From positions 68,767 to 132,766 of the forward strand of contig SVEE01000002.1 in the NCBI GenBank assembly GCA_015057525.1: 64,000 nucleotides of DNA. The letters are read 5' to 3'. This stretch comes from Lachnospiraceae bacterium. Lineage in GTDB: Bacteria; Bacillota; Clostridia; Lachnospirales; Lachnospiraceae. Below the pieces are notes generated by a model that saw only the letters and a program-made list of their open reading frames with translations, was not told where the DNA came from and ran no database searches. Shown in pieces: positions 42,207-49,357 of the stretch; positions within the stretch are counted from its first letter, which is position 1; every line of letters starts with the position of its first letter. The translations under genes were made by a program, and so were the position numbers.

Positions 42207-43220
42207 ATGAGTTTAAGAACAATTTCTCGAGAAGAAATTACTCTTTTGAAAAATAAAAGAAAAAAGAAAATAAATAAAATTATAGCATGTATTTTTTCTC
42301 TTATTCTATTGTGTGGAATAGGAGTTGGAACATATTTTTATATAGATCACTATGATAACAACATAAAAAAAGGCAAAGAAATCAACACTGGTACAAAGGT
42401 TTCCTTGGGTAATTCAGATAGTAATGTTATACCATATGAAACTTTAGATGAATATCCAGGAATAATAACAGATGGAACAGCTACAGATGCTACAGAAGAG
42501 CAAGTGGCTGAGACTACAGAAGAAGTTACAACAGAGTTTGTTGTGCCAGAGACTTCTTTACCACCTGTAGAAGAGATTGCTGGTAATGACTGGTACGATG
42601 AAGAGACTTATGTATTACATGAAGGACCAGTGGATTTATCATATTTCGATAATGCAGTTTTTATTGGTGATTCCAGAACTGAGGGGCTTATTTTATATGG
42701 TGGAATACCTAATCTTAATGGTTTTTGCTATAAAGGATTAAGTATTGATAAGCTAGATTCACTTTATCAGATATATGTTCCCGAACATGGAAGTGGTTAT
42801 TCTTGCTTTGAGGCAATTGAAATGACAAAGTATGATAATTATTATTGTATGTTTGGAGTTAATGAATTAGGCTGGGTTTATTTGGATGTATTTATCGAGT
42901 ATTTTAATGAACTCATCGAGCAGATAAGAGCTACTAATCCAGATGCAACAATATATGTTCAAAGTGTTTTACCTGTTTCTGAATATGAATCAGCAACAAG
43001 TAGCGTATATACTCAGGAGAGAGTAAAACAGCTTAATGATATGCTTATCGAAATGTGCCAGAACAGAAAGGATGTAATTTATCTTGATACGGCTGCCAGT
43101 GTAACTGGCGAAGATGGTTTTCTTCCTGAAGAAGCTGCAGCAGATGGAATTCATTGTAATGCTGACTATTGTAAGCGTATGCTTCAGTATATAAGATATC
43201 ATGTTTATGACAAAAAATAA
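42207..43220 (+). CDS. Membrane-anchored SGNH/GDSL-type hydrolase
   Basis: N-terminal TM; T/E-rich linker; blocks FIGDSRTEG, MFGVNELG, ADGIHCN. Confidence 0.8.
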   Translation: MSLRTISREEITLLKNKRKKKINKIIACIFSLILLCGIGVGTYFYIDHYDNNIKKGKEINTGTKVSLGNSDSNVIPYETLDEYPGIITDGTATDATEEQVAETTEEVTTEFVVPETSLPPVEEIAGNDWYDEETYVLHEGPVDLSYFDNAVFIGDSRTEGLILYGGIPNLNGFCYKGLSIDKLDSLYQIYVPEHGSGYSCFEAIEMTKYDNYYCMFGVNELGWVYLDVFIEYFNELIEQIRATNPDATIYVQSVLPVSEYESATSSVYTQERVKQLNDMLIEMCQNRKDVIYLDTAASVTGEDGFLPEEAAADGIHCNADYCKRMLQYIRYHVYDKK

Positions 43221-43224
43221 TTGT

Positions 43225-43283
43225 AATACCTTCATTTATTATTACATATACATTTAATAGTGTAATAGATAAATGGAGGTATT
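43225..43283 (+). promoter_or_regulatory. Long hairpin sequestering the spoIVA SD (also terminator-like)
   Basis: TACCTTCATTTAT (43227-43239) pairs with ATAAATGGAGGTA (43269-43281), TATTAC (43240-43245) with GTAATA (43262-43267); followed by TTTTT. Confidence 0.75.
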
Positions 43284-43286
43284 TTT

Positions 43287-44747
43287 ATGGACATCTATAA
43301 AGATATAGAGCTTAGAACCAAGGGGGAAATATATATGGGTATTGTAGGCCCTGTGAGAACAGGTAAGTCTACATTTATAAAAAGGTTTATGGAGCTCTTA
43401 GTTTTGCCTGCAATTGTGGATGACTATGGTAAAATTACAGCCAAAGACGAGTTGCCACAATCTTCAGGAGGACGTACCATTATGACCACTGAACCTAAGT
43501 TTATACCTAAGGATGCAGTGGAAGTTATTCTTGAGGATGGAGTAAACTTTAAGGTCAGAATGATTGATTGTGTTGGTTATATGGTTCAGGGTGCTGAGGG
43601 GCATGAAGAAGATGGAGTAGAAAGATTGGTGAAGACCCCTTGGTTTGACTATGATATTCCTTTCACAAAGGCGGCTGAGATTGGCACCAGAAAGGTAATT
43701 CATGACCATTCAACAGTAGGTATTGTTGTAACTACGGATGGAACAGTTACGGATATAGATAGAGGCTATTATATTGATGCAGAAAGACGTACAATAGATG
43801 AATTAAAGTCTATAGGTAAACCATTTGTGGTGATTTTAAATTCTAGCCGACCTGCTTCTGATGATACCATTGAATTGGCAGAGGAAATGTCAGAGGAATA
43901 TGGTGTTGCTGTAATTCCTGTAAATTGTGACCAGTTAAAGGGAAGTGATATAAATACAATATTTGAGAATTTGCTTATGGATTTCCCTGTAAATGCACTC
44001 AACTTTTATATACCAAAATGGATTGAGGCTTTAGATAACTCTAATGAAATTAAGAAATATATAATAGAAAACTGTAAAAATATGTTTTCAAAAATAAAAC
44101 ATATGAAGGATTTGTATGAGGAAGATTGTGAACTGCTTGAATACATAGATGCAATAGAGATGGATTCCATAAGTATGGCTGAAGGAAATATTAATCTTAA
44201 GATAAAGGTTAATGATAAATATTACTATGAAATGCTTTCAGATATGATGGATTGTTCTATAAAGAATGAATACGAATTTATTCGTGAAATAAAGGATATG
44301 GCAAAAACCAGAAAACAATGTATAAAGGTTAGTTCAGCTTTAGTACAGTCCTTAAAAACAGGCTACGGTTCCGTAACACCTGAAGAAGATGAAATTAAGC
44401 TTGATGAACCAGAGTTAATAAAATCTGGAAACAAATATGGAGTAAAAATCAAAGCACAGGCTCCTTCTATACATTTAATCAAAGCAAATATTACAACAGA
44501 GATTGCACCAATAATCGGTTCGGAGGAACAAGCAAAGGACTTGATAAAATATATAGGAAAGGATAATATGGATAATGATAATATTTGGTCCGTAAATATA
44601 TTTGGTAAAACAGTAAAACAGCTTGTAGAGGATGGCTTAAAAACAAAAATCAATAAAATAAATCAGGAAAGTCAACAAAAGTTACAGGATACAATGGAGA
44701 AAATAGTTAACGATTCAAACGGTGGAATGGTTTGCATAATAATTTAA
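43287..44747 (+). CDS. spoIVA: Stage IV sporulation protein A
   Basis: MDIYKDIELRTKGEIYMGIVGPVRTGKSTFIKRFMELLVLP; 486 aa. Confidence 0.97.
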   Translation: MDIYKDIELRTKGEIYMGIVGPVRTGKSTFIKRFMELLVLPAIVDDYGKITAKDELPQSSGGRTIMTTEPKFIPKDAVEVILEDGVNFKVRMIDCVGYMVQGAEGHEEDGVERLVKTPWFDYDIPFTKAAEIGTRKVIHDHSTVGIVVTTDGTVTDIDRGYYIDAERRTIDELKSIGKPFVVILNSSRPASDDTIELAEEMSEEYGVAVIPVNCDQLKGSDINTIFENLLMDFPVNALNFYIPKWIEALDNSNEIKKYIIENCKNMFSKIKHMKDLYEEDCELLEYIDAIEMDSISMAEGNINLKIKVNDKYYYEMLSDMMDCSIKNEYEFIREIKDMAKTRKQCIKVSSALVQSLKTGYGSVTPEEDEIKLDEPELIKSGNKYGVKIKAQAPSIHLIKANITTEIAPIIGSEEQAKDLIKYIGKDNMDNDNIWSVNIFGKTVKQLVEDGLKTKINKINQESQQKLQDTMEKIVNDSNGGMVCIII

Positions 44748-47401: not shown

Positions 47402-48565
47402 GTGAAGAAACTAGTGAGTTTTGTTTTGATTTTTTTTCTTGTTTTTCAACTGATTACGCCAGTTTATGCTGAGGAGCTTAATGAAAATCAGTTATATTCA
47501 TTATCAGCTGCAATGATAGATGGAAACAATGGAAGATTGTTGTATGGTAAAAATCCTAATGAACAAAGAGCTATGGCAAGCACAACTAAAATCATGACAT
47601 TAATACTAGCTCTTGAATATGGTAATCTTGAAGACATTATAACCGTTAGTTCATATGCATCAAAGATGCCTGATGTGCAGCTGGGAATTAAAGAGGGGGA
47701 ACAGTATAAATTAGGTGATTTGGTTTATTCAATGATGTTAGAAAGTCACAATGATGTTGCTGTTGCAATAGCGGAACATGTGGGTGGAGACCTTGAATCA
47801 TTTATAAATATGATGAATAAGAAGGCTATGGAAATAGGTCTATCCAATACATATTTTTTAACTCCAAATGGACTAGATATGGAAGATGAGTCGGGTAAGC
47901 ATAGTAGTACTGCTTATGAAATGTGTTTGATTATGAAGTATTGTGTTATGGATTCGCCCATGAAAGAGGAATTTATGGCTATATGTCAAACAAGACAATA
48001 TACATTTTCTGACTACAATAATAAAAGAACCTTTACTGTAGATAATAAAAATGCACTGTTAGATAAAATGGACAATGTTCTAGCAGGGAAAACAGGATTT
48101 ACAGTGGATGCTGGGTATTGTTATGTATGTGCTGTTTCTTATGAGGATAAAGTTTATATTGTAGCTTTATTAGGTTGTGGCTGGCCAAATAACAAGGGTT
48201 ATAAATGGAAGGATGTAACAAAGCTTATAGATTATGGTAAATCAGAATTTGAATATGTAAAAATAATAGACAGAACGTATGATATTGGTGAAATAAAAGT
48301 AATTGACGGTATACAAGATGACAAGACAAAGCTTTATGTTACGGATGAGATAGAACTCCTTTTATGTAAGGATGATAAAGTTGACATTATATGTGAAAAT
48401 AAAGATGTCATATATGCACCGGTAACTAGGGGTGATGTTGTTAAAAAGCTAAATATATATATAAATGACGAATTTTATACAAGTGTAAATGTGTATGCGG
48501 AGGATTCCATAGATAAAATAGATTTATCGTATTGGGTGTATAGAATATTTGATATGTATTTTTAA
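47402..48565 (+). CDS. D-alanyl-D-alanine carboxypeptidase (DacB/DacF type)
   Basis: Signal peptide; STTK, SHN, KTG motifs (MASTTKIMTL, ESHNDVA, AGKTGFT); GTG start. Confidence 0.92.
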   Translation: MKKLVSFVLIFFLVFQLITPVYAEELNENQLYSLSAAMIDGNNGRLLYGKNPNEQRAMASTTKIMTLILALEYGNLEDIITVSSYASKMPDVQLGIKEGEQYKLGDLVYSMMLESHNDVAVAIAEHVGGDLESFINMMNKKAMEIGLSNTYFLTPNGLDMEDESGKHSSTAYEMCLIMKYCVMDSPMKEEFMAICQTRQYTFSDYNNKRTFTVDNKNALLDKMDNVLAGKTGFTVDAGYCYVCAVSYEDKVYIVALLGCGWPNNKGYKWKDVTKLIDYGKSEFEYVKIIDRTYDIGEIKVIDGIQDDKTKLYVTDEIELLLCKDDKVDIICENKDVIYAPVTRGDVVKKLNIYINDEFYTSVNVYAEDSIDKIDLSYWVYRIFDMYF

Positions 48566-48586
48566 TATGTAGTAAAGGAGATAAAA

Positions 48587-49357
48587 ATGGAAATATTTAA
48601 TATATGTGTTTGGGGAAAAGACAAAAGATTAGATGCTGTGGAACATTTTTTTTATGATAGGGGATATGATGTATATAGAGAGTTGGAATATATTGATAAG
48701 AATAGTATTTTGATTTTACCACCACCTGTCAATGAAGATATAGCGAATGTGTTGAAGGAGTATGTACATAGTGGTCAGATAATTTATGGTGGGGCAATAA
48801 GTGATGGAGTAAAAAAAATATTGGAACAGTGCAAATTATGGGATTACTTGAGCTGGCAAAATGTTGTTACTGAAAATGCTCGTTTGACTGCAAAAGGAAT
48901 TATCAAACAGGCAATTAATGTAGGTGCTATTTTTGAAGAAGCAAGTTGTCTTGTTACTGGCTATGGATTTTGTGGAAAAGAGATAGCAATTCAGCTTAAA
49001 AATTCGTTAGCTAATGTGGATGTTGCAGTAAGACGAAAGGAATTAAGAAGAGAAATAGAAAAAATAAATTGCGAATACGTTGATATTAATGATTTAAAAA
49101 TAAACAATTTAGAAAAATACAGTTATATTTTTAATTCTGTACCAGCTTTGATATTTGATAAGGATATTATTGATTTGCTTGCACCGGATGCTATGATTTT
49201 TGATATTGCATCAAAACCAGGCGGTACAGAATTTTCTTATTGTGTTGAAAAAGGGATATATGCAGTAAATAGTTTGGGAATTCCAGGAAAAGAATATCCT
49301 GATGAAGCAGGAAAGATTATAGCAAATGCAGTAAATGAGCATATAATATCTTTATAA
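48587..49357 (+). CDS. dpaA: Dipicolinate synthase subunit A
   Basis: LILPPPVNED, LTAKGIIKQAI, CLVTGYGFCGKEIA, FDIASKPGGTEF. Confidence 0.93.
   Translation: MEIFNICVWGKDKRLDAVEHFFYDRGYDVYRELEYIDKNSILILPPPVNEDIANVLKEYVHSGQIIYGGAISDGVKKILEQCKLWDYLSWQNVVTENARLTAKGIIKQAINVGAIFEEASCLVTGYGFCGKEIAIQLKNSLANVDVAVRRKELRREIEKINCEYVDINDLKINNLEKYSYIFNSVPALIFDKDIIDLLAPDAMIFDIASKPGGTEFSYCVEKGIYAVNSLGIPGKEYPDEAGKIIANAVNEHIISL

Follow-up and report, generated by a model that had tools for sequence, protein, structure and literature searches.

A hairpin that encloses the Shine-Dalgarno sequence of spoIVA and a predicted sigma-E promoter in Lachnospiraceae

How does a sporulation gene that closely follows a string of growth genes escape being expressed together with them? 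The question is raised by spoIVA in a 64,000-nt stretch of DNA (here, the window) from a Lachnospiraceae bacterium whose genome assembly comprises 2.35 Mb in 21 contigs. The window contains, in this order, a DUF512-like gene, der, plsY, gpsA, a gene for an SGNH/GDSL hydrolase, spoIVA, scpA, and scpB; SpoIVA and the GDSL domain were named by profile matches, and der, plsY, gpsA, scpA, and scpB from their translations. The hydrolase-like gene (42207-43220; PF13472, E 9e-15) closes the DUF512-der-plsY-gpsA-SGNH string, while spoIVA (43287-44747), encoding stage IV sporulation protein A, the spore coat morphogenetic ATPase, matches TIGR02836 with 619.5 bits (cut-off, 460) as well as PF09547, PF20438, and PF20439. 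Both genes and all features described below are on the plus strand. spoIVA is a sigma-E gene in Bacillus subtilis (PMC517825) and Clostridioides difficile (PMC3789822), and the genome analyzed here encodes sigE (TIGR02835, 376 bits; cut-off, 348.6) and also spo0A. Between the hydrolase stop codon (43220) and the spoIVA ATG (43287) are 66 nt with one strong hairpin. Farther downstream (47402-49357) lie a D-Ala-D-Ala carboxypeptidase-like gene that starts with GTG and a dpaA-like gene, both named from their translations, and inspection of their leaders by eye revealed no obvious long hairpin over the SD. Among 120 Lachnospiraceae genomes, spoIVA was not seen in 37, of which 32 are among 101 near-complete genomes; this pattern suggests repeated loss of sporulation.

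An earlier note on this DNA had proposed that a hairpin beginning 5 nt past the hydrolase stop hides the whole Shine-Dalgarno (SD) sequence of spoIVA and is followed by a T-tract. In the minimum free energy fold of 43215-43300, the 5' arm (43225-43247) pairs with 43260-43266 and 43268-43283, giving 23 pairs, a single bulged base (43267) in the 3' arm (43260-43283) and, in read-through RNA, a loop at 43248-43259. The folding energy is −24.4 kcal/mol compared to −10.9 ± 2.4 kcal/mol for shuffled sequences (z, −5.7), and none of 200 shuffles reached it. The proposed arrangement is found in full: the stem starts at 43225, 5 nt after the end of the hydrolase open reading frame, the 3' arm contains the complete SD sequence GGAGG (43275-43279), and TTTTT (43282-43286) right after the stem fills the gap between SD and ATG in a terminator-like manner. 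A search of the region against Rfam gave nothing above the gathering score, and the only two models reported, both for microRNAs and far below that score, were taken as chance. A consensus scan for promoters and terminators found promoter-like sites at the shuffled rate only and did not list the spoIVA hairpin because its loop exceeds the 8-nt limit of the scan.

The two arms have changed together. Aligning 18 leaders from the same genus, we observed double changes that keep pairing at 11 of 20 stem pairs compared to 4.1 ± 1.4 in shuffled alignments, and none of the covariation measures was reached by any of 500 shuffles; kinship among the relatives means that the shuffles overstate independence, a bias that the one-per-genus and arm-swap comparisons below lessen but do not remove. 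When the partner was slid by 1-3 columns, the fraction of paired cells fell from 91% to 46-49%. RNAalifold returned a closely similar structure, in which 12 pairs are compensated. In an alignment-free comparison, cognate arms paired more stably than swapped arms both within the genus (−25.0 versus −16.4 kcal/mol; z, −9.5) and with one leader per genus (−18.3 versus −12.5 kcal/mol; z, −14.2), while 5' windows moved 30 or 60 nt upstream gave no cognate advantage. The compensatory changes that the earlier note had asked for in related genomes are thus present, and the pairing is conserved in orthologous leaders. Because the 5' arm is at the same time the spacer of the promoter described next, selection for pairing is the best explanation of why this arm is complementary to the SD region.

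The earlier note had also seen in the loop a loose resemblance to a sigma-E −10 element. A sigma-E-type element is indeed present, but its fit is better than loose, and it extends from the uppermost part of the 5' arm into the loop. The predicted −10 element CATATACA (43245-43252) lies 19 nt downstream of the ATA of a predicted −35 element (43226-43228, within GTAATACC), so that the 5' arm holds both the −35 element and the spacer. ATA (alignment columns A6, T7, and A8) and CATATA are invariant in the 18 same-genus leaders. Among 110 scored Lachnospiraceae leaders, the distance from ATA to CATAYA is 19 in 86, 18 in 17, and 20 in 7. This near-fixed distance is needed by a promoter and not by a hairpin and, therefore, points to a promoter. 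Sigma-E promoters of C. difficile have an ATA −35 element and a −10 element in common with sigma-K (PMC3789822). From the promoter spacing, transcription is predicted to start at 43258-43260, about 6-8 nt past the −10 element. Consensus, near-fixed spacing, and conservation thus suggest that spoIVA has a stage-specific promoter of its own, whose position would leave the 5' strand of the hairpin out of the RNA.

Such an RNA would have a free SD. A computed SD pairing probability of 1.0 was obtained for RNA with its start at or before 43227 and of 0.19 for RNA starting at 43257-43260, in agreement with the idea that RNA begun in the loop frees the SD. Across 85 nested leaders (i.e., those with the promoter inside the hairpin), mean SD pairing is 0.96 when the RNA begins upstream of the spacer and only about 0.3 when it begins at or after the −10 element. 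Since pairing is lost once the RNA starts at the −10 element, the lock requires exactly the promoter spacer. Taken together, covariation, promoter spacing, and release of the SD support the overall proposal of an SD-hiding hairpin with a promoter inside it. As a separate observation, the predicted short sigma-E RNA can form a 12-bp hairpin of its own (43279-43306; −9.5 kcal/mol; z, −2.7), in which the T-tract and the AUG pair with codons of MDIYKDI; by this modeling, it might dampen spoIVA translation in the gene's own transcript.

How widespread the lock is was assessed from the probability of SD pairing upstream of the nominal start site, set 27 nt before the start codon, with P > 0.8 as the criterion. 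This value was exceeded in 25 of 30 same-genus spoIVA leaders, 39 of 52 from other Lachnospiraceae genera and 9 of 19 from other families compared to 14 of 216 other genes and 1 of 44 genes with a codirectional neighbor at similar distance; the matched set of 44 genes is the weightiest control and supersedes a broader codirectional set contaminated by sporulation genes. After shuffling of the upstream part of the spoIVA leaders, P > 0.8 was still seen in 21%, and the claim is therefore carried by group statistics and not by each single case, single cases outside the genus being weaker. About 19% of the Lachnospiraceae leaders examined (20/106) do not qualify as nested. The upstream neighbor among relatives is the SGNH gene, gpsA or another gene, with gpsA directly upstream of spoIVA in several same-genus relatives, and the hairpin is kept throughout; we therefore consider that the element belongs to spoIVA. 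It is also present in 5 of 10 leaders in which the upstream gene has the opposite orientation, which counts against a role as an insulator. Five same-genus leaders have a loop that is about 35-40 nt longer, with an extra inner hairpin between the −10 element and the 3' arm, and retain the outer, SD-containing stem.

The earlier note had further viewed the hairpin as a terminator for the hydrolase gene. Like an intrinsic terminator, the leader has a stable stem with a T-tract directly behind it. T-tracts are enriched over control genes: of the 7 positions preceding the start codon, at least 5 are T in 80% of nested leaders versus 6% of control genes, and 69% versus 3% contain a run of four or more T. 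SD pairing is weak in two same-genus leaders (L024 and L025, the latter from Eubacterium sp. MSJ-21), and a third (L026) barely qualifies as nested; each of these three has a separate classical terminator, GC-rich and with a T-run, directly before the promoter. Counted over 106 leaders, 3 of 86 nested and 4 of 20 non-nested ones have a separate terminator (p 0.02); that the scan finds one in only 4 of the 20 non-nested leaders counts against the insulator model. T-tract enrichment and the separate terminators of L024-L026 back the earlier view, and the spoIVA hairpin probably serves the vegetative gpsA/SGNH operon as an intrinsic terminator too; the case for termination is at least as strong as that for a translational lock.

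We consider it likely that the hairpin is a dual insulator, combining a terminator and an SD lock, with the developmental promoter of spoIVA nested inside. In growing cells, read-through RNA from the vegetative gpsA/SGNH operon would form a hairpin of 20-plus bp followed by U5, and most polymerases would stop just before the spoIVA start codon. RNA escaping termination would have its SD locked in the stem and give little protein. The sigma-E RNA polymerase of the mother cell would use the −35 (43226-43228) and −10 (43245-43252) elements in the 5' arm and at the edge of the loop, and its RNA, starting in the loop and lacking the 5' arm, would form neither terminator nor lock and have a free SD. 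spoIVA would thereby be silent in vegetative cells, presumably to their benefit. The combination is favored over either function alone because of the T-tract enrichment and the distribution of separate terminators.

Four other explanations bear on these data. The hairpin could be only the intrinsic terminator of the upstream operon, with the SD lying in the 3' arm for lack of space and its concealment serving no purpose. The strong T-tract enrichment, the separate classical terminators in leaders whose nested hairpin has weakened or disappeared (L024-L026), and the tendency of nested hairpins and separate terminators not to occur together all fit this explanation. However, the stem spans the whole SD in nearly all species, though a terminator could sit upstream of the promoter; the T-tract is missing from nested hairpins before some other sporulation genes (L200, GGAGGAAACTAGTG; L201, GGAGGTAGTATTTTG) and is interrupted (TATTATT) in two spoIVA leaders (L004 and L020), interruptions that also speak against the dual insulator. 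We regard termination as the sole function as rather unlikely. The converse, a translational lock on read-through RNA with no real termination, as proposed for sigG of B. subtilis (PMC5942855), would account for the SD pairing of about 1.0 in long RNA and for the leaders without a T-tract, but the abundance of T between SD and ATG in nested leaders relative to control genes makes it improbable. It is more doubtful still that the hairpin acts within the sigma-E transcript to restrain translation of spoIVA, in the manner of the small hairpin at the sigG ribosome binding site (RBS), with the true start further upstream: the start site given here is a predicted one, which leaves room for this idea, but no other promoter with conserved spacing was found before 43225, and the conserved ATA/CATATA pair sits inside the hairpin. 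Finally, the view of the inverted repeat as an operator in the DNA, bound by a dimeric repressor (for example, SpoIIID) and brought to mind by spoIVA being a SpoIIID target in B. subtilis (PMC517825) and repressed by SpoIIID in C. difficile (PMC3789822), was rejected as highly implausible, since arm sequences that diverge widely among species while remaining complementary, with G-U in 187 of 1616 stem pairs, fit RNA pairing and not a fixed protein site.

The dual insulator with a nested promoter may extend beyond spoIVA. A pattern search (CCYY, CATAYA, and RGGRGG), in which matches were picked by the look of the hairpin and not by gene function and which is not an unbiased survey, gave hairpin-forming matches mostly before sporulation genes. 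Leaders of the same build precede genes for cotS-like, PdaB-like, YabG, SpoIIID, superoxide dismutase, peroxiredoxin, and PRK06851-like proteins as well as D-Ala-D-Ala carboxypeptidase (dacB-like) and CspB-like genes, the hairpin of one CspB-like gene (L211) being weak. In the source genome, a CotS-family gene (L303; contig C7, about 154.6-155.6 kb) with a TTG start has a T7 tract and a nested hairpin, and its SD pairing is 0.99 in RNA from upstream and 0.20 in the short RNA. A match before rplM of the same genome forms no hairpin and was set aside as a chance match. Among spoIIID leaders, taken one per genus, about half exceed 0.8 SD pairing; that of the source genome has no SD lock, which counts against the insulator model. 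The spoIIID leaders (L213-L240) have a common block similar to CATACATTGTAAAAACA, and in many of them the −10 element itself belongs to the 5' arm and pairs beside the SD. Percentages from a survey of pdaB were set aside, since the profile does not reach the beginning of the protein and the start codons derived from it are unreliable. In other families, one gene each for superoxide dismutase, a PRK06851-like ATPase, and peroxiredoxin has a leader of the mother-cell type, which suggests possible sporulation roles for these genes. We tentatively propose, at somewhat less than even confidence, that mother-cell promoters in Lachnospiraceae and neighboring families are commonly nested in hairpin terminators that have the gene's SD as the 3' arm and the promoter spacer as the arm pairing with it. 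Sporulation genes in vegetative operons would thus be silenced across the regulon by an insulator that requires no protein.

The proposed arrangement would explain how a sporulation gene can lie close behind essential housekeeping genes without expression during growth and without a dedicated protein. It sharply predicts where RNA start sites and 3' ends should map. As a sequence signature, the layout could help to find mother-cell genes, such as that for the PRK06851-like ATPase, in uncultured gut bacteria, and, if the regulon-wide proposal is true, it marks mother-cell genes in genomes beyond culture.

The underlying principle is already known, having been established for phage T4 gene e and I-TevI and proposed for B. 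subtilis sigG. With the SD inside a helix, a promoter placed to remove the 5' strand and compensatory changes in the arms, the spoIVA leader would be of this same kind, a lock on the RBS of read-through RNA. In the T4 late genes e, soc, 49, and I-TevI, as described in passages of PMC3014915 and PMC2988022, a helix in early read-through RNA hides the SD, and the late promoter overlaps the DNA of the 5' strand, so that late RNA lacks this strand and is translated. The resemblance to these genes drawn in the earlier note is fair in that read-through RNA hides the SD and the gene's own promoter overlaps the 5' strand; however, T4 involves phage genes and a phage sigma factor, and the passages describe no fused terminator, whereas spoIVA has a bacterial promoter of the sigma-E type. 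The closer precedent is sigG (spoIIIG) of B. subtilis. According to Mearls et al. 2018 (PMC5942855), transcripts running on from the spoIIG operon were proposed to be kept from translation by a large hairpin (Masuda 1988; Sun 1991), which RNA initiated at sigG's own promoter is unable to form. In both cases, a sporulation gene lies behind another transcription unit, and a hairpin of 20-plus bp would be absent from RNA made from the gene's own promoter. sigG is a forespore gene behind a sporulation operon, while spoIVA is a mother-cell gene behind a vegetative operon; unlike at sigG, the spoIVA stem runs directly into a T-tract next to the start codon, and the arrangement is met again before many genes and in many genera, with compensatory changes. 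Like an intrinsic (Rho-independent) terminator, the spoIVA hairpin is stable, is followed directly by T5, and lies at an operon end; unlike in an ordinary one, its 3' arm is the SD of the next gene, its T-tract occupies the space between that SD and the ATG, and the promoter of the next gene is contained in its arm and loop. In the open-licence literature, we came across no description of such a layout, either at spoIVA or in Lachnospiraceae, and the fusion with a terminator, the support from coevolution, and the recurrence before mother-cell genes appear, within the papers searched, to be new. In B. subtilis and C. difficile, sigma-E promoters likewise have an ATA −35 element, a CATAYA −10 element, and near-fixed spacing, but in the spoIVA leaders of Lachnospiraceae the spacer doubles as the antisense arm of a hairpin.
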